From contig JASHTA010000453.1 in NCBI GenBank assembly GCA_030040795.1, positions 1 through 37,044 of the forward strand: 37,044 nucleotides of DNA, given 5' to 3'. The notes under the pieces were generated by a model, which saw only the letters and a program-made list of their open reading frames with translations, had not been told where the DNA came from and did no database searches. Position numbers and translations under genes: made by a program. The stretch is from Gammaproteobacteria bacterium (GTDB lineage Bacteria; Pseudomonadota; Gammaproteobacteria; Steroidobacterales; Steroidobacteraceae). This document shows, piece after piece, positions 4,623 through 20,097 of this stretch (the first letter of the stretch is position 1; each line of letters begins with the position of its first letter).

Positions 4623-4698
<76 letters not shown>

Positions 4699-4736: not shown

Positions 4737-5543
4737 ATGACCGCATCTTCGCGTCGCTTCGAGAGCACGGTTCCGTACTACGCGCGCTATCGACTCGGCT
4801 ATCCGACTCGGCTCATCGAGCGGGTCATCACGCTCGTGGGACTCAGGCCGGGCGATGCGGTCTTGGACCTCGGGACGGGCCCTGGACTCCTTGCGGTCCC
4901 GTTCGCGGCCGCCGGCTTCCGAGTGACTGCCGCGGATCCGGAGCCTGCGATGCTCAAGGTGGCCGGGGAGGCGGCGAGCGATGCGGGCGTGGCCTTGGAG
5001 TTATGGCTCGGGGGATCTAACGAGCTGACTCCCGGAATGGGCCCCTATCGCTTGGTCACCATGGGTCGATCGTTCCATTGGATGGATCGTGCCAGCACGC
5101 TCGCCCTGCTGGATCAGCTTGTAACCCCGGACGGGGCGGTAGCGCTCTTCCATGACGATGCTCCTAAGACGGCCGAAAACGCTTGGCGCGAGGTGCTGCG
5201 CGAGGTTTCGGACCGCTACGGCCGAGGCGCCGAATCCCACGTGGCGGCCTTCCATGCGCCCGATTATCGCACTCACGTGTCCTACCTCCTTGACTCGGCG
5301 TTTTGCTTGCTCGATGGCGTAAGCGTCGTGATCCGCCATTCGATCTCGATCGATGAGATCGTCGGCCGTGCATTCTCAATGTCCACGTGCTCGCGCGAGA
5401 AGCTCGGCGACCGCGCCGCCGCATTCGAGGCTGAGCTGCGCGCAGCGCTGGGTGAACGTTCCCCGAGCGGCATGTTCGTGGAGATCGCGGAGCTCATCGC
5501 GCTGGTCGCGACTCGGCCGAGAGAGGCCTTTACTGCTCGCTGA
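4737..5543 (+). CDS. Class I SAM-dependent methyltransferase
   Basis: Motif I VLDLGTGPGLLAVPFA, RVTAADPEPAML, and MGRSFHWMD. The stop codon lies inside the left copy of the direct repeat. Confidence 0.85.
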   Translation: MTASSRRFESTVPYYARYRLGYPTRLIERVITLVGLRPGDAVLDLGTGPGLLAVPFAAAGFRVTAADPEPAMLKVAGEAASDAGVALELWLGGSNELTPGMGPYRLVTMGRSFHWMDRASTLALLDQLVTPDGAVALFHDDAPKTAENAWREVLREVSDRYGRGAESHVAAFHAPDYRTHVSYLLDSAFCLLDGVSVVIRHSISIDEIVGRAFSMSTCSREKLGDRAAAFEAELRAALGERSPSGMFVEIAELIALVATRPREAFTAR

Positions 5544-5627
5544 GAGCCCGGCTCACGGGCATGCGGCCTGCGTGGATCGCGGGCAATAGCCCGCCGAGCA
5601 GGCCGATCGCCAGAGCTCCTGACATCG
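5531..5627 (-). pseudogene. Fragment of ABC transporter permease 3' end (duplicate of 6520-6616)
   Basis: On the minus strand encodes MSGALAIGLLGGLLPAIHAGRMPVSRALSEQ*, versus MLGALAIGLLGGLLPAIRAGRMPVSRALSEQ* of the intact gene. Confidence 0.9.
5531..5627. repeat. Direct repeat copy 1 (~97 bp, partner 6520-6616, 3 mismatches)
   Basis: tactgctcgctgagagcccggctcacgggcatgcggcctgcg(t/c)ggatcgcgggcaatagcccgccgagcaggccgatcgccagagctcc(tg/ca)acatcg. Confidence 0.95.
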
Positions 5628-5700
5628 ACTGTCTTCCAGACTTGACCCGTATATCAGGGATGCGGGACAATAAGAGGCGTAAAAGCATATTGCTGTATTT

Positions 5701-5970
5701 ATGCGAACTACCTTCGATCTCCCGGATGATCTCATGAAGCGCGCCAAGATCGTGGCCGTAAGGCGCGGTTCGACGCTCCGAGATCTCGTTGCCGAAGCCC
5801 TGAGAAAGCTGCTGTCGGACCAGGGTTCGCCGGAGCGGAGGCGGATGAATGACGCTCCCATCAAGCTGCCGGCTGGACACACGATTCCGGTTCGGTCCAA
5901 TGCCGAAATCGCCCGGCTGTTCGAGCAGGAAGACGTGGCGCATCTGAATGACGTGTATCGCGGACGCTAA
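5701..5970 (+). CDS. vapB: VapB-like ribbon-helix-helix antitoxin
   Basis: MRTTFDLPDDLMKRAKIVAVRRGSTLRDLVAEALRKLL N-terminal RHH; overlaps the PIN toxin ORF by 23 bp. Confidence 0.83.
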   Translation: MRTTFDLPDDLMKRAKIVAVRRGSTLRDLVAEALRKLLSDQGSPERRRMNDAPIKLPAGHTIPVRSNAEIARLFEQEDVAHLNDVYRGR

Positions 5971-6388
5971 CGTCCTATTCCCGCTGCTGGTTCGGGGACA
6001 CTCGGCGCACGAGGTGGCTATGGAGTGGTGGCAAAAGCAGTCGGACAGAACTGTGGGTACTTGCCTTCTCACACGTCTTGCGGTGTTGCGCCTGTTGAGC
6101 AACCGGGTTGCCATGAACGGCGATCCGGTCAAGCCGGAAGAAGGCTTGGCGGCTTGGCGACAGCTTTCGGATGATCCGCGATCGACCCCTATCGATTCCG
6201 AGCCCACGACTCATGAGCGTCGCTTCGCCTCGCTGGTCACAGGGCGCCAACCGACGCCTAATCTTTGGACGGATGCGTGGCTCGCGGCCCTGGCGTTGTC
6301 ATTGGATTATGAGGTGACGACCTTCGATCGTGGATTCAGGTCTTTTCGTGGCCTGCGCGTGAGGCTCCTGACGCTGCCGGATCGGTGA
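5948..6388 (+). CDS. vapC: VapC-like PIN-domain ribonuclease toxin
   Basis: IADANVLFPLLVRGHSAHEVAMEWW...TCLLTRLAVLRLL...WTDAWLAALAL...VTTFDRGF: PIN-domain acidic residues. Confidence 0.87.
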   Translation: MTCIADANVLFPLLVRGHSAHEVAMEWWQKQSDRTVGTCLLTRLAVLRLLSNRVAMNGDPVKPEEGLAAWRQLSDDPRSTPIDSEPTTHERRFASLVTGRQPTPNLWTDAWLAALALSLDYEVTTFDRGFRSFRGLRVRLLTLPDR

Positions 6389-6518
6389 TGCGCACTCTCG
6401 ACAGCCGCTCATGTGGCAGAGAATGTCATGTCCATGGCGCGCGTTTGCATGCGCATCTCTTGTACTTGCAACACACCTGGGGGTTTGAACTGGCTGGCTC
6501 GAAGATCCTTTCTCCCGG

Positions 6519-7691
6519 CTACTGCTCGCTGAGAGCCCGGCTCACGGGCATGCGGCCTGCGCGGATCGCGGGCAATAGCCCGCCGAGCAGGCCGATCGCC
6601 AGAGCTCCCAACATCGCCTCGAGCATCAGACGGGCCGGGACCACGAACTGGAACGCGAACTGCGTATCGCCCAGGAAGTTCGTGTTCGCCTGCAAGTTGT
6701 TCAACGCCAGATAGATGATCCCCGCGCCGAGAACACTCCCCGCCAAGGCGAGCAGCACCGACTCGCCGACGACCGCTGCGCCAACCGGGATGGCCCCGTA
6801 GCCGATCGCTCTTGCCGTTCCGATCTCCCGTACACGCGTGGCGATGGCACCGTACATCGTGTTGAGAGCGCCGAAGATCGCGCCGATGCCCATGATGATG
6901 AGCAGCGGCACGCTGAAGAATCTCACCGTACCCAGCAGGTCGCGCGCCCTGCGCTGGTAGTACTGCGATTCGGGCAGTGCGTAGACGCCCAGGTTGGGAG
7001 CTGCCTTCAGTGCGGCCTGAAAGCGCGCCACAGCATCCTTGCCTGAGAGCTTCACGCGCACGCTGTGCACGCCGGGTCCCAGACGAAATGCCGCCTGCAG
7101 GACAGGCAGATCGGCCCACAGCTCCGACTCGATGGCACCACCTCCATCTTCGAAGACCCCGACGATCGGCCAATCCGAATCCGCCAGACGCAATTTGTCG
7201 CCGACTTCCAGGCCCGCAAATTGCCGTTGGCTGCTGCGGCCGACCAGCAACTCGAATTGTCCTGGGATGAGGGCTCTGCCGGCGATGACCTTCAGGCCGC
7301 TACGGATTCTGAAAGCGGCAGGGGTCACGCCCCGAACCGAAAGATCCACGTAATCCCCCTGGCTGATGCGCTTGACGCTGACTGGACGAGAGCTCTCGGC
7401 CGAGACGATCGCGCGCGGGTCGGCAGTCGTCGCAAGTCCCTCCACGGCGGCAGTCGTATCCCTGTCCAGATTGCTTTGGTCCTCGGAGTCCTGACCGGTC
7501 TTGAGAACCACGAGAATCCCATCGTTCGAGCTTGCCATCAGCAATGATCGAAAGCTTGCGGCGATGGAGAACAAGCCGACGAAAACCGCCACGATGCACG
7601 CGACGCCAAATGCATCGATGGCCGCGCTCGCCCACCGTTGCGGCAAGGTGAGCAGGTTCAGCCGCAAGAGCGTCCACATCTGTCCGATCAT
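6519..7691 (-). CDS. ABC transporter permease (FtsX/MacB-like)
   Basis: Start at MIGQMWTLLRLNLLTLPQRW; C-terminal FtsX-like domain ...GALNTMYGAIATRVREIGTARAIGYG...; ATG overlaps the preceding stop (ATGA). Confidence 0.87.
   Translation of the reverse strand: MIGQMWTLLRLNLLTLPQRWASAAIDAFGVACIVAVFVGLFSIAASFRSLLMASSNDGILVVLKTGQDSEDQSNLDRDTTAAVEGLATTADPRAIVSAESSRPVSVKRISQGDYVDLSVRGVTPAAFRIRSGLKVIAGRALIPGQFELLVGRSSQRQFAGLEVGDKLRLADSDWPIVGVFEDGGGAIESELWADLPVLQAAFRLGPGVHSVRVKLSGKDAVARFQAALKAAPNLGVYALPESQYYQRRARDLLGTVRFFSVPLLIIMGIGAIFGALNTMYGAIATRVREIGTARAIGYGAIPVGAAVVGESVLLALAGSVLGAGIIYLALNNLQANTNFLGDTQFAFQFVVPARLMLEAMLGALAIGLLGGLLPAIRAGRMPVSRALSEQ
6520..6616. repeat. Direct repeat copy 2 (3' end of intact permease gene)
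   Basis: Same 97-bp string as 5531-5627, offset 989 bp. Confidence 0.95.
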
Positions 7692-8845
7692 CGCCGCTCG
7701 GTCCTGATGGCTTCGATGACCGTCAGGCGCGCAGCGCGTCGGGCCGGAAACCAACCGACCAGGCATCCGCTCACCACCATCAGCGCGACGCCGGCCACGA
7801 GTTGTGTGCTCGATAGCCGGATGTTTCCGAGCTGCCTCTGTGCCACGTGAACGAGCCAAAAGGCCGCCAGCAGCCCGAGGCCGCCTCCTGCAAGCAGCAA
7901 CACGTTGGCCTCTGTCATCACGAGCCACCAGATCCGCCGCGGCCCGAAGCCGAGGGCCTTCAACGTGCCGATTTCACGGGTGCGCTCGCGGAAGCTCTGC
8001 GTCATGCTGTTGCCGGTCGCGAGCAGCATCGTCAGGAAGACCGCCGCGAGGATCAGATAAGCGATGAGGGTGATGTTGCCGATACGCCTGAAGTAATCGC
8101 GCCGCACGCCGTCCTGGGTCCCCGACGAGGTCTCGGCGCCGGAGTTCATGAACAGCTGATCCACCGAGTGAGCAAATCGGGAGGGGTCCACGCCGTTTCT
8201 CAGGATTGCGACCATGAAATCGATGGTGCCCCGCTCGGTGGCCCGACTCTCGTCGAGGTACGTGTAGTGATAAAAGAGCTGCTCGTGGCCCTCGGCGGGG
8301 TCACGGTAGCGCCAGATGCCGCGGATCGTCACGTAGAAGACATGCGTGCCGTCCAGCTTGGTGATGCCGGGCATCGTGATCGGCACCACGTCGCCGAGCT
8401 TCCAGCCGTACTTCTTCGCGATGAACTCATTTGCGAGGGCGCCCTGGCGGTCGGCGCGAAAGGCTCGCACCTGCTGCAAGTCCCAGACAAAGCGGCCTGT
8501 CGGATCCGGCGCGTGGGGAAAATCCTCATCGATGGCCATGGGGTCCAGCGGGTTCTTCGGGTCCCGGTAGTACCCGCCCCGCTCGACCGCGAAATCCACT
8601 TCGTCGTCTCTCAATCCAGGAAGGCGGTGGACCTTCTCCACGTCGCTCAGCGGGAGCGTGTCGGTGTACTTCGGATCGATGAAGATATGCACGTTGTCGG
8701 AGAACCGGTATCCGCCGCGGAAGAAGACCGCTACCGCGGACAGCGCGCCGAACAGCATGAACGCGCTGATGATCGACACGGCCAGAAACAGCAGCCGTGT
8801 CTTGTCGCGCATGATGTTCGCGAGGACAAATCCCAGGTATCTCAC
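7688..8845 (-). CDS. ABC transporter permease (FtsX/MacB-like)
   Basis: Likely GTG start VRYLGFVLANIMRDKTRLLFL (ORF extends to 8887); FtsX motif SFRERTREIGTLKALGFGPRRI. Confidence 0.86.
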   Translation of the reverse strand: MRYLGFVLANIMRDKTRLLFLAVSIISAFMLFGALSAVAVFFRGGYRFSDNVHIFIDPKYTDTLPLSDVEKVHRLPGLRDDEVDFAVERGGYYRDPKNPLDPMAIDEDFPHAPDPTGRFVWDLQQVRAFRADRQGALANEFIAKKYGWKLGDVVPITMPGITKLDGTHVFYVTIRGIWRYRDPAEGHEQLFYHYTYLDESRATERGTIDFMVAILRNGVDPSRFAHSVDQLFMNSGAETSSGTQDGVRRDYFRRIGNITLIAYLILAAVFLTMLLATGNSMTQSFRERTREIGTLKALGFGPRRIWWLVMTEANVLLLAGGGLGLLAAFWLVHVAQRQLGNIRLSSTQLVAGVALMVVSGCLVGWFPARRAARLTVIEAIRTERR

Positions 8846-8996
8846 CGGGCCCCTTTCTGCATCCCCCGCGGGACAGGCACACCACAACTCTTGTTCCGAT
8901 TTGGATTTAGGATAGTACCCAGGGGTTTAAGTTGCAGATTCGCTGTTGTTTTTGACCCCGGGCCTCCTCTTGCGGGGGCGTACCGACCGGCAAGTC

Positions 8997-9830
8997 TCAC
9001 GCTTTCCAGGCCATGTAGGCCGCCATCGCGGTCACGATCGTAATGAGGACTGCGCGCAGCACGGTGGGACTGACGCAGTTGGCGGCGCGAGCGCCGGCAT
9101 CCGTTCCGGCCCAGAGGCCGACGATTACTGCGGCGAGGATCGGCCAGGACGGCAGGAGTCCCTCCCGCCAATACACGTAGGCAGCGGGCAAGGTCGTCGG
9201 AATGATCGATAGGAGGAGACTCAGCATCTGTGCCTGGTGTTGAGGCACTTTCAATGCGGCAGTGAGGCCGGCGACGATCGCAAGACCGCCGCCGATTCCG
9301 AGGTATCCTGAGGACAAGCCCGCGAGCAAGCCAACGGTGAGCAGGGCAGGCCCGCGAATGCTTTCGGCCCCGGAAGCGGTAGCAGTGGACCCCGGCACTC
9401 CCCGGGCTATTGCACGACGGATGATCAACGCGTCGAGAGCGCCCAGGTAGACGACGTAGCTCCACTGCAGGATCGAGCTCGAGACATGCGCCGCGCCGAT
9501 CGCGCCCGCAGCGCCGCCGACCAGAAAACCCGAAGCGAGCCACGGCAGCCGGGTCCTGCCGCAGCGGCCTCCCTGCGCTTGGTAACGCCTGACGGCCGTA
9601 AAGCCGGTCGGAGGGATCTGGGCGGCGAGCGAGATACCCTGACTGACGTGCTGCTCGACCCCAAGCAGCAGCGTCGACAGTACCACCAAGGCCCCTCCGG
9701 GGCTGACGCCGCAGAGACCCGAGGTCAGACCTCCGATCAGCCCCACGCAGGCGGCAAGGAGCAGCGCCGACGGATGGGACGAAGCGGTCGAGGCGGACTC
9801 GAGCAACAGGGGAGTAGACAGAAGGGTCAT
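8997..9830 (-). CDS. TauE/SafE family sulfite exporter-like membrane protein
   Basis: Multi-TM, VGLIGGLTSGLCGVSPGGALVV and SGYLGIGGGLAIV duplicated glycine-rich motifs. Confidence 0.85.
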   Translation of the reverse strand: MTLLSTPLLLESASTASSHPSALLLAACVGLIGGLTSGLCGVSPGGALVVLSTLLLGVEQHVSQGISLAAQIPPTGFTAVRRYQAQGGRCGRTRLPWLASGFLVGGAAGAIGAAHVSSSILQWSYVVYLGALDALIIRRAIARGVPGSTATASGAESIRGPALLTVGLLAGLSSGYLGIGGGLAIVAGLTAALKVPQHQAQMLSLLLSIIPTTLPAAYVYWREGLLPSWPILAAVIVGLWAGTDAGARAANCVSPTVLRAVLITIVTAMAAYMAWKA

Positions 9831-9844
9831 TCCTGTTAATAATG

Positions 9845-9858
9845 ACTGACTAGTCAGT
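9845..9858. promoter_or_regulatory. Candidate TetR operator: perfect 14-bp palindrome ACTGACTAGTCAGT
   Basis: Perfect self-complementary string in the 47-bp divergent gap between the exporter and the TetR gene. Confidence 0.75.
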
Positions 9859-9877
9859 TTTTATCAAGGGGGCTCCA

Positions 9878-10492
9878 ATGCCCAAGATCAATGCGCAGCA
9901 GCGCGAAGCGCGCCGCGACCGGCTACTGGCGGCGGCTCTCAAGTGCTTTTCGCGCGATGGGTTCCATCAGACGACGACGGCGGATATCGTTCGCGAGTCG
10001 GGAGTGAGCCAGGGAACGCTCTACCTCTATTTCAAGAGCAAGGACGACCTCATCGCCGCGCTGGCGGACGACCGTCACCAGCACGAGGCGGCCCTGAACG
10101 CGCTTGCAGAGCACGAAGAGGACCCTTTGAAGAGTATCCTCGCGCTGGTGAGGCTGTATGCAGAGCGGCTCTCGGACATCTCCCAGAGCGATGCCCTGAG
10201 GGTCGGCCTACAAGGCTGGGCCGAAGCGCTGCGAAACGAGCGCGTCAGGATCGGCGTATTGGACGGTGTCTCGCTTGCGCGCACGGCGCTGGTTCGCGTC
10301 ATCCGGCGAGGGCAAAGAACGGGTGTGTTCAGGAGGGATCTCGATGCTGAGGCCATGGCGAGCCTGCTCGTGGCGATCTTTCAAGGCTTCGTCTTGCGGG
10401 CCGTGTGGGAGCCGAGGCGGGATCTCGAGCCGTGCTTCAAGCTGGTGAGCGAGCTCGTGCGCAATACGCTGATCCACGCGAGGCCGGATTGA
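9878..10492 (+). CDS. TetR/AcrR family transcriptional regulator
   Basis: RDRLLAAALKCFSRDGFHQTTTADIVRESGVSQGTLYLYFKSKDDLI HTH. Confidence 0.95.
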   Translation: MPKINAQQREARRDRLLAAALKCFSRDGFHQTTTADIVRESGVSQGTLYLYFKSKDDLIAALADDRHQHEAALNALAEHEEDPLKSILALVRLYAERLSDISQSDALRVGLQGWAEALRNERVRIGVLDGVSLARTALVRVIRRGQRTGVFRRDLDAEAMASLLVAIFQGFVLRAVWEPRRDLEPCFKLVSELVRNTLIHARPD

Positions 10493-10525
10493 GGGAGCAG
10501 TCGACTATTCACGAGGTGAATCAGC

Positions 10526-11062
10526 ATGGATCCTAAACTCGTCACCCCGCTTATGGTCGCCGCCCTGGTGGCCTGGGGAGTCTTTCGGCGCGTGCGGCGG
10601 ACCTTCGGCCGCCAACGGGTCAACCCCGGTCGGATTTGGTTCCGTATGGGCGTGCTCGCACTGGCCGGAGCGGTCGTTTTCGCAACGAGCGCGGCGCGGA
10701 ACACCGACTTGCTGGGCGCCGTGATCGCCGGTATCACCTGTGGTGCGGCGTTCGCGCTTGTCGGGCTGCGGTACACGCAGTTCGAAGCGACGCCGGAAGG
10801 CCATTTCTATATCCCGCACACCTACATCGGCCTGGCGGTGACCGCCTTGTTCCTCGGCCGCCTGCTGTACCGGTTCCTTTATCTCTCCTCCGGCGCACAC
10901 GCGATGACCGGTGCGAACCAGGATCTCGCCTCGTATCAAAGAAATCCGCTGACTATCGGGATCTCTGCGGCGTTCATTGGCTATTACGTGGTCTTTTATG
11001 CAGGCGTGCTCGTCAAGACCCGAGCACTGGCGCTACCGATCAGAGCGGGTACTACCGAGTAG
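10526..11062 (+). CDS. Small multi-TM membrane protein (possibly DUF1453/CcdC-like)
   Basis: About four hydrophobic segments, GLRYTQFEATPEGHFYIPHTYIGL; family name is a recollection only. Confidence 0.55.
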   Translation: MDPKLVTPLMVAALVAWGVFRRVRRTFGRQRVNPGRIWFRMGVLALAGAVVFATSAARNTDLLGAVIAGITCGAAFALVGLRYTQFEATPEGHFYIPHTYIGLAVTALFLGRLLYRFLYLSSGAHAMTGANQDLASYQRNPLTIGISAAFIGYYVVFYAGVLVKTRALALPIRAGTTE

Positions 11063-16879: not shown

Positions 16880-19350
16880 GCCGCGCGGCGCAGATCCGGC
16901 GCGAGTCGGAGCTCGCACAGCGCATTCCCTACGCGGCGCACGTTGCAGAGAAGGTCGTCCGGACGACACTCGGCGATTACGTGCAGATTTTGCGCCTGTC
17001 CGGTGCGAGCTTCGAGAGCGCGGATGACGTTGAGCTCAACGGCTGGCACGAGCGCCTGAACGTGTTGTGGCGCAATGTGGCGAGCCCGCAGATCGCGCTG
17101 TGGACTCATCTGGTACGGAGGAGGGAAGGCATCTCGGCGGGCGCGGGCGGCGGGGCGGGCTTCGCGCGCGAGCTTGCAGAGAAATACCAAGGAAGGTTGG
17201 CGGGCGAGACGCTCATGGTCAACGAGCTTTACGTTTCCGCGGTGTACCGGCCGGTATCCGGCGCGGCTTCCGGCTGGATCTCGAAGCTTCTGTCCAAGAC
17301 GCAGCGGAGCGCATTCGAGCTCGAGCTGCGGGATGCGCTCGATGCATGCGAAAAGCTCGCGCAGACGCTGTGCGCTTCTCTCGAGCGGTACGAGCCCGAG
17401 CCGCTCGGAATATTCCGAGCTGGCGGTCGCGTCCAGTCGCGCCTTCTCGAGCTGCTGTCGTTTCTCGTCAGCGGTGAGACGGGACCGGTGCCGTTGCCGC
17501 GTGCGCCGCTCTACAGAGCTCTCGGTACGACTCGACTGTTCTTTGGAAACGAGGCGATCGAGTACCGCGGCGCGGCTCACACGCGGCTCGGGGCGATGCT
17601 CGGCATCAAGGAGTATGCAACACCGAGCGTGGTCGGCATGTATGACCGGCTGTTGTCGGCGCCGTTCCCGTTCGTCCTCACTCAATCCTTTGCCTTCCTC
17701 ACCAAGGCTGCCAGCCAGGGACTGCTGCAACGGCAGTCCAATCGCATGGCGAACGCGGGGGATTTTGCGATCTCGCAGGCGCGAGAGCTGAAGGACGCCC
17801 TGGATGCGCTGACGAGCAACGATTTCGTGATGGGTGACCACCATTTCTCGCTTCAGGTCCTGACGGACATGAGCGACGGCGGAAGCGGCGGTGGGGATGG
17901 CCAAGTCATCAGGTCTCTCAACGATCGCGTAGCCCTCGCGCGCAGCCTGCTCGCCGACACGGGAATGACTGTCGCGCGCGAGGATCTTGCGCTCGAGGCG
18001 GCGTTCTGGGCGCAGCTGCCCGGAAACTTTCCGATGCGCCCCCGCAAGGCCGCGATCACTTCGCGCAACTTCTGCGCGATGGCTCCGCTCCACAACCATC
18101 CCTGCGGACGCGCGGCCGGGAATCACTGGGGCGATGCGCTCGCGCTGCTGATCACGAGCGCACGCTCGCCGTACTATTTCTCGCTGCACGCGAGCGATCC
18201 GTCGGCTGCAGACGGCGGCAGCCGCAAGGATACCGGACACAGCTTCATCTGCGGGCCGACCGGCTCCGGCAAGACGGTGCTCATCGGCTTTCTTCTCGCG
18301 ATGCTCAGCCGGCAGGGCGTGACGCAGGTGGTCTTCGACAAGGACTGTGGGCTCGAGATCCTCGTGCGGGCGCTGGATGGGGAATACCTTCCGCTTCGCA
18401 ACGGCGTGCGGACGGGATTCAATCCGCTGCAGCTTCCCCGTACGGCGAACGACGAGGAATTCCTGAAAGTATGGCTCGGCGCCCTAGTACGGCCGCCGGG
18501 CGGCCGGCCGTTGAGTGTCCGGGAGCAGGGGGACCTCGACCAGGCATTGCGAGGAACACTCGCCCTCGAGCCCCGGGAGCGCCGCCTGTCGCGCCTCGTG
18601 GAGTTTCTCGATCCGACGGATCTCGAGGGGGTGCACGCGCGTCTGGCCCGCTGGTGCGAGGCGCGGCGAGGCGATTACGCCTGGGTGTTCGACAACATCG
18701 AGGATACGGTGGTCCCGAGGCTCGACGGGCGTCCGGTGATCGGTTTTGACGTCACGGATTTCCTGGAGAATGAGGTCACGAGGCCGCCGGTCATCCTCTA
18801 TCTGTTCCATCTCGTCCGTCGGCTGCTCGATGGGCGGCGCCTCGTATGCTGGATGGACGAGTTCTGGCGACTGCTCGCCGACCCGGCCTTCGAGCGCTTT
18901 GCCAAGGACGGACCGAAGACCTGGCGCAAATTGAACGCCGTCATGTGCCTCGCGACCCAAAGCGCGAGCGACGTGCTGCAAAGTCCGATCAGCCGCACGA
19001 TCGTCGAGCAGACGCCGACGAAGATCTTCTTTCCGAGCGTCGACGCGAATGAGGAGGACTACGTTGGCGGCCTTGGACTGACGGAGCGGGAATTCAAGCT
19101 GGTGAGGCAGCAGCTCCTGCCGGGCTCGCGGTCTTTTCTCGTGAAGCAGGGTCATCACAGCGTGGTCTGCCAGCTCGATCTTAAGGGTTTCGACGCGGAG
19201 CTCGCAGTGATTTCGGGACGGATGGAGGAGGTCGAGCGTATGCGTCGAATCATCGAAGAAGTCGGTTCCACCGCGGCGCAGTGGCTGCCACGGTTTCTCG
19301 CACCGCTGGCGGCTGCCCGATCGTCCGGCTCCCAGCGCTCTCATCCGTGA
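16867..19350 (+). CDS. virB4: T4SS ATPase VirB4
   Basis: 827 aa from ATG 16867; Walker A GPTGSGKTVL, Walker B region LVCWMDEFWRLLADPAF, ...CLATQSASDVLQSPISRTIVEQTPTKIFFP. Confidence 0.95.
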   Translation: MAALSRAAQIRRESELAQRIPYAAHVAEKVVRTTLGDYVQILRLSGASFESADDVELNGWHERLNVLWRNVASPQIALWTHLVRRREGISAGAGGGAGFARELAEKYQGRLAGETLMVNELYVSAVYRPVSGAASGWISKLLSKTQRSAFELELRDALDACEKLAQTLCASLERYEPEPLGIFRAGGRVQSRLLELLSFLVSGETGPVPLPRAPLYRALGTTRLFFGNEAIEYRGAAHTRLGAMLGIKEYATPSVVGMYDRLLSAPFPFVLTQSFAFLTKAASQGLLQRQSNRMANAGDFAISQARELKDALDALTSNDFVMGDHHFSLQVLTDMSDGGSGGGDGQVIRSLNDRVALARSLLADTGMTVAREDLALEAAFWAQLPGNFPMRPRKAAITSRNFCAMAPLHNHPCGRAAGNHWGDALALLITSARSPYYFSLHASDPSAADGGSRKDTGHSFICGPTGSGKTVLIGFLLAMLSRQGVTQVVFDKDCGLEILVRALDGEYLPLRNGVRTGFNPLQLPRTANDEEFLKVWLGALVRPPGGRPLSVREQGDLDQALRGTLALEPRERRLSRLVEFLDPTDLEGVHARLARWCEARRGDYAWVFDNIEDTVVPRLDGRPVIGFDVTDFLENEVTRPPVILYLFHLVRRLLDGRRLVCWMDEFWRLLADPAFERFAKDGPKTWRKLNAVMCLATQSASDVLQSPISRTIVEQTPTKIFFPSVDANEEDYVGGLGLTEREFKLVRQQLLPGSRSFLVKQGHHSVVCQLDLKGFDAELAVISGRMEEVERMRRIIEEVGSTAAQWLPRFLAPLAAARSSGSQRSHP

Positions 19351-19380
19351 GCTCTCTTGATATCCACGAGGGTCGCCGTC

Positions 19381-20097
19381 ATGCCTCCGAAGTTCTCAGT
19401 CTATCTGCGTGCCATGGGTTTGCTGCTGCTCCTCGGGGTCGCTCCTGCTGCGCGCGCGCAATGGGCGGTGGTCGATGTGGGCGCCATCGCTCAGCTCATC
19501 CAGGAGGTCGAGCTGACGGAACAGGCGCTTGCGACCGCGCAGGGACAGCTGCAGCAGGTCGAGCAGACCTACCGCGCGATGACCGGCGACCGGGGCATGC
19601 AGTCGCTGCTGAGCGGAACGGTACGCAATTACCTGCCGACCAGCTCGAGTGAGCTGCAGGCCGCGCTCGGCCAAAGCGGCACATCTTATGGTGCGCTTGC
19701 GACACTCATGCAGAGCGCTATCGCCACAAATACGGTGCTGACGCCGCAGCAGCTTGCAGTCCTTCCGGCCGATGCCGCCGGTTTCCTGCAAGCCGCTCGA
19801 CGCACGACCGCGCTGTTGCAGGCGATCGAAGGAGACGCGCTCGCCAACTCGAGCGGTCGGTTCGCCTCGCTGCAACAGCTGATCGACGCGATCGGTACCG
19901 ACACCGACCAGAAGGGCAGTCTCGATCTCAATGCCCGAATCTCCGCTGAGCAGGGCATGTTGCAGAACGAGCAGACCAAGCTGCAAGTGCTCTTTCAAGC
20001 GCTCGTCGCTCAGCAGTGGTCCGATCGGCAGCGAGAGCGCGAGCAGGTCGTCGCCGACCACGGCGACTTCAGCACGCGCTTCGCGCCCACGCCGTAG
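19381..20097 (+). CDS. virB5: T4SS minor pilus protein, VirB5-like
   Basis: Signal peptide; ...VVDVGAIAQLIQEVELTEQALATAQGQLQQVEQTYRAMTGDRGM; position in operon. Confidence 0.8.
   Translation: MPPKFSVYLRAMGLLLLLGVAPAARAQWAVVDVGAIAQLIQEVELTEQALATAQGQLQQVEQTYRAMTGDRGMQSLLSGTVRNYLPTSSSELQAALGQSGTSYGALATLMQSAIATNTVLTPQQLAVLPADAAGFLQAARRTTALLQAIEGDALANSSGRFASLQQLIDAIGTDTDQKGSLDLNARISAEQGMLQNEQTKLQVLFQALVAQQWSDRQREREQVVADHGDFSTRFAPTP

Follow-up and report, generated by a model that had tools for sequence, protein, structure and literature searches.

When a prophage or island integrates at the 3' end of a protein-coding gene, as e14 does in icd, the gene stays intact, with its 3' end at one boundary of the insert, and a displaced 3' fragment that has diverged slightly is found at the other. 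The same arrangement is found around a vapBC toxin-antitoxin (TA) pair in the window studied here (the whole stretch of 37,044 nucleotides from a gammaproteobacterium of the family Steroidobacteraceae), but in this case the insert amounts to 0.9 kb without an integrase and the displaced copy carries derived bases. The pair resembles other type II VapBC systems (TIGR00028) in its gene order, its overlapping genes and a PIN toxin that scores above the family cut-off, and it is ordinary apart from its wandering distribution. Little is understood of the way in which small TA pairs that lack their own recombinase move between chromosomes.

Cis-mobilizable elements (CIMEs) are decayed elements that keep attL and attR (PMC5704250). 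The window locus is similar to them in that attL/attR-like direct repeats are present at both ends of the insert and at the 3' end of a gene, one of them completing an intact permease gene, in that no integrase or transfer genes are found inside, and in the tandem accretion seen at the related locus L309. It differs from CIMEs in that it contains a TA pair only, in that no parent element or integrase is known for the permease target and in that the inner edges of repeats at protein genes have no dyad. As argued in PMC11023631 and papers cited therein, TA cassettes help to keep integron cassette arrays, and the window locus likewise has a small self-promoted TA pair between repeats which may hold neighbouring DNA in place. 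In contrast to integron cassettes, however, the window repeat is gene coding sequence and not attC, and there is no integron integrase. An integron cassette was therefore rejected, the repeat being permease coding sequence shared with the congener G002 and GTTRRRY sites occurring at chance level. From its anatomy and by analogy we lean towards the view that vapBC inserted alone, as a TA pair, where the permease gene ends, duplicated this target and works like a cis-mobilizable element.

The repeat pair and the vapBC insert

A repeat search of the window revealed a direct repeat of 96% identity (5531-5630 and 6520-6619) with a longest exact run of 46 bp between the copies; in 30 Markov-resampled windows of equal size the longest exact repeat was 17 bp. 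Alignment of the copies confirmed the claim of a preliminary description that a 97-bp permease gene end (6520-6616) is repeated at 5531-5627 with 3 mismatches, which are located at 5573, 5620 and 5621, and no other repeat in the window comes near this pair in strength. Since the mismatches at 5620 and 5621 are at the inner edge, a clean core can be delimited at 5531-5619 (89 bp, 98.9% identity, one mismatch). A third good copy was not found in the source genome assembly (3.9 Mb, 565 contigs, 77% complete). The repeated piece is the permease 3' end. It begins inside the permease stop codon, which is TAG in the right copy and TAA in the left, a small correction to the boundary given earlier for the left copy.

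Both copies are read on the minus strand. The right one (6520-6616) belongs to an intact FtsX/MacB-type permease gene (6519-7688, minus strand; Pfam MacB_PCD and FtsX), of which it forms the 3' end, and the left one (5531-5627) is the displaced copy. Up to position 5628, stop codon included, the copies differ at five sites. At four of them the right copy has the base of G002, the fifth being uninformative in this comparison, and therefore the left copy is the derived, unconstrained one. On its left, the displaced copy runs into a convergent methyltransferase gene (4737-5543, plus strand; Pfam Methyltransf_25), which has lost its native end and takes its last three codons and stop from the copy. 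At the METHYLTRANSFERASE end, sister-genus homologues of this methyltransferase (L158-L160) finish in ...ARRP followed by stop, seven residues before the window gene, which runs past ARRP as REAF and then TAR-stop. As TAR-stop lies inside the left copy, the earlier proposal that this copy supplies the final codons and stop of the methyltransferase is borne out.

The permease similarity of the left copy stops sharply at 5619-5630. This bears on the two readings offered originally, an acquisition that duplicated its target or a collapsed gene duplication. A decayed full-length permease duplication around vapBC would account for a left copy that is permease sequence with coding-compatible changes, but similarity would not be expected to end so sharply, and neither between the copies nor in the genome assembly was any further fragment of a second permease found; we rejected this reading as highly improbable. 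Acquisition with target duplication is favoured by the derived state of the left copy, by the recurrence of the arrangement with other TA pairs and other genes and by the empty sites, described below, that a comparison of two other genomes of the family shows. An artefact of assembly is hardly credible either, even though the assembly is fragmented (565 contigs, 77% complete), because the copies carry diagnostic mismatches and share no exact run above 46 bp, which is shorter than usual assembly k-mers, and because the same architecture was met in independent genomes as well, among them G029 (L278), whose genome is a single contig.

Between the copies only vapB and vapC were found, and the open reading frame list agrees with the earlier statement that they are the only complete genes there. 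The antitoxin gene vapB (5701-5970, plus strand, 89 amino acids; an open reading frame with a weak Antitox_RHH match below the Pfam cut-off) lies directly upstream of and overlaps the toxin gene vapC (5948-6388, plus strand, 146 amino acids), whose product has a PIN domain (Pfam PIN, 42.1 bits) and reaches 91.8 bits with TIGR00028, above the cut-off of 73.6 bits. A probable promoter, read from the sequence, is located at 5642-5671 on the plus strand (TTGACC, 18 bp, GACAAT). DNA matches in L149-L154 and L137 define an itinerant vapBC unit at 5641-6425 (plus strand), which begins at the -35 box and ends a short distance beyond vapC. The remaining 94 bp of the insert, from this unit to the right copy (6426-6519), gave no match. 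Neither an integrase nor an integrase remnant was found between the two copies, and a transposon or insertion sequence was rejected, there being no terminal inverted repeats at the cassette ends and, with only vapB and vapC inside, no transposase.

According to the favoured reading, the insertion would leave the permease intact on the right and duplicate about 90-97 bp of the 3' end of its gene, and the displaced fragment on the far side would be the one now ending the convergent methyltransferase. A cassette without a recombinase of its own would then be surrounded by an attL/attR-like direct repeat. We infer that vapBC itself made the duplication here, by a recombinase that probably acts in trans. 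A deletion of 989 bp would result if the copies recombined with each other, and loss of the antitoxin together with a lingering toxin would be expected to select against such a deletion.

Inspection of VapC by eye also suggested that the stretch LTRLAVLR, common to all close relatives, is without an acidic residue at a place where PIN toxins often carry one.

Genomic surroundings and distribution of the vapBC unit

The left part of the window is syntenic with the congeners G001 and G003, and synteny with G001, G002 and G003 breaks at a tRNA-Ala(cgc) gene (4623-4698, plus strand), which was recognised by ARAGORN and which synteny and relatives mark as the edge of a variable locus. Directly behind the same tRNA-Ala, G103 has a long tyrosine-integrase reading frame, and G119 has an integrase remnant together with a vapBC remnant behind it; the locus is therefore a variable, integrase-visited site. 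The tRNA-Ala itself was rejected as bracket of the vapBC insert, because a second tRNA-Ala 3' end is absent from the window.

To the right, the intact permease (86% protein identity to its G002 counterpart) is followed by the second permease of a pair (7688-8887, minus strand; assigned by Pfam, the start of its open reading frame possibly lying further in). The pair shows 85% DNA identity to that of G002, where it is found at another locus, ending beside glmS and with ccdAB on the other side. In G002 the permease 3' end is single and vapBC was not found. As no ABC ATPase gene was noticed adjoining the pair in the window or in G002, it may be an orphan. A close permease orthologue exists only in G002, with different neighbours on both sides, and neither the permease nor vapBC was found in the other two congeners, so that the empty site expected among close relatives is not available for the window's own locus. 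Recurrent integration at the 3' end of this permease family was examined with 80 homologue loci, about 4.9 kb downstream of each, and was rejected as only four weak short matches were obtained; an integrase for the permease 3' end was not found.

Two further observations concern these genes. The permease pair (6519-8887 in the window; L138 and L136 in G002) occupies different loci in two congeners. In the source genome, a second glmS 3'-end stretch is located at a contig edge near ABC transporter genes (L128 5-115; G000:C189), and it may represent either a paralogue or a further gene end that was displaced.

The vapBC unit recurs with 70-83% DNA identity at unrelated loci in several sister-genus genomes. 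In all close copies conservation starts, on the left, at the -35 box, and their flanks have nothing in common. Three of the copies (L150, L151 and L154) share their stretch with C-terminal tyrosine-integrase remnants, the Pfam match in L151 being weak, and several adjoin other TA pairs. Direct repeats directly bracketing the sister-genus copies were not detected, and the repeat was therefore rejected as a fixed property of the vapBC unit. A search of phages gave no match for the window vapC, its plasmid relatives are restricted to Thermus (about 40%), and viral contigs yielded one weak partial match.

These data have to be considered together with the possibility that the repeat is a rearrangement scar without relation to vapBC mobility, in which the permease pair moved here and duplication followed by partial deletion placed a permease end next to the methyltransferase and caught vapBC in between. 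That the pair is placed differently in G002, between other genes, would fit such a history, as would sibling vapBC units without repeats and the vapBC remnant of G119 behind the same tRNA-Ala, by which vapBC could be an older resident of the site. However, a scar would require that the duplicated piece starts in a stop codon by chance, and it would leave unexplained that the same layout recurs with other TA pairs and other genes. We consider a scar unlikely.

In G107, L154 5588-8494 harbours a series of three TA pairs, two RES-Xre and one vapBC, with near-identical tRNA 3' fragments between them and a C-terminal integrase remnant. The TA islands of this array form a chain at a single type of tRNA.

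Bracketed TA pairs in the family

A first parallel was met by chance in G031, where a higBA-type pair lies between two copies of a tRNA-Ala region. We then surveyed 121 TA-centred loci (about 104 unique) of the TIGR00028 and PF05973 families in stretches of genomes from the same bacterial family, whose genomes are mostly fragmented assemblies, L278 (G029) being from a single-contig genome. Ten of the about 104 unique VapC or HigB-type loci (L278, L292, L296, L303, L308, L309, L216, L222, L228 and L236) are enclosed by direct repeats of 45-151 bp with little else inside, and in most of them the insert is TA-sized (713-1438 bp). Among 60 longer stretches (1.04 Mb), 14 local repeat pairs were detected and 6 of these enclose the targeted TA pair compared to 1.0 expected (P = 1.7e-4), a P value that is indicative because the permease-centred control (0.90 Mb, mixed taxa; four such repeat pairs) was not taxon-matched and some loci (L303 and L222) are non-independent. 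The enrichment test was framed after the pattern had been noticed, with two toxin families scanned. Three further repeat pairs enclose another TA pair (twice in L309 and once in L270). A description of TA-only bracketed inserts was not found in the literature (open-licence papers).

Two types of target can be distinguished. At six loci (L303, L222, L278, L308, L296 and L236) the repeat covers the 3' part of a tRNA, starting at or next to the anticodon loop and reaching the tRNA's 3' end, and the tRNA is intact on one side. Attachment sites of tyrosine integrases have this geometry. The repeats in the window, at two sites in L309 (18622 and 9645), in L216 and in L228 consist of a 3' end that belongs to a protein gene or a predicted gene, the genes at the 9645 site and in L228 having no Pfam match, and the outer edge of the repeat lies between about 4 bp before and about 70 bp after the stop codon. 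Unlike at the tRNA sites, an anticodon-like dyad is absent from the inner edges of the protein-gene repeats, and the mechanism may therefore differ. The repeats of L292 resemble the 3' part of a tRNA, but since neither ARAGORN nor Rfam recognised an intact tRNA gene, this locus was counted as bracketed with its target unnamed.

Empty sites were obtained from a comparison of G041 with its congener G023. In G041, a 61-bp gene end is present in two identical copies at 18622-19456 of L309, with a 713-bp higBA insert between them, and at the same site G023 has a single 61-bp copy with flanks that are 97-98% identical on both sides. Similarly, at 8774-10568 two TA inserts are present in one target in G041, and both are absent from G023, where the target segments lie side by side. 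An empty site of the kind proposed earlier as a check for the window is seen here for equivalent insertions in another genome. These sequences show that in this family TA pairs do insert alone, duplicating the 3' end of a gene and causing no other loss, and in G041 this was recent. Where TA-only inserts are bracketed by target ends and related empty sites exist, the ends, the target choice and the length of the duplication can be read directly. Such inserts also provide natural cases in which an addictive pair may keep a deletable direct repeat in place, and loci for telling TA-only mobility from the last remnant of a collapsed island.

With regard to the latter, a larger integrase-borne island might have entered the permease 3' end, with the two copies as its attL and attR, and decayed to vapBC alone. 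The locus is integrase-visited, sibling vapBC units adjoin integrase remnants, a repeat that reaches the gene 3' end with the gene kept intact is the pattern of an attachment site, and decayed elements of this kind are what the term CIME denotes (PMC5704250). However, the 900-bp insert shows no further island trace, its inner edge is without a dyad, most bracketed inserts are of TA size, and the inserts of G041 are young, as indicated by the flank identity with G023, yet already TA-only. A decayed island therefore seems rather unlikely to us. Returning to TA-only insertion, we tentatively extend it to the family, where type II TA pairs might possibly be a class of recombinase-free mobile cassettes, about 0.7-1.5 kb in size, each inserting by itself at the 3' end of a tRNA or protein gene, duplicating about 45-150 bp of this target and leaving the gene intact; the protein-gene cases, with their long and variable duplications, might then follow an unrecognised mechanism.

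Some of the bracketed loci display additional features. In G041, L309 accommodates three TA inserts within 11 kb (8774-10568 and 18622-19456), each with its own repeat of 59, 88 or 61 bp. Near-identical vapBC pairs are found in two species at tRNA-Pro(tgg), upstream of a folD-like gene (L303 9447-10315 and L222 1159-2340), and their tRNA-end repeats have diverged to different degrees. In G031 (L192 4812-6626), the copies of the tRNA-Ala(cgc) region that surround the higBA-type pair comprise about 410 bp with 93% identity, and the displaced copy has the 5' part of the tRNA without its 3' end, which is the reverse of an integrase site.
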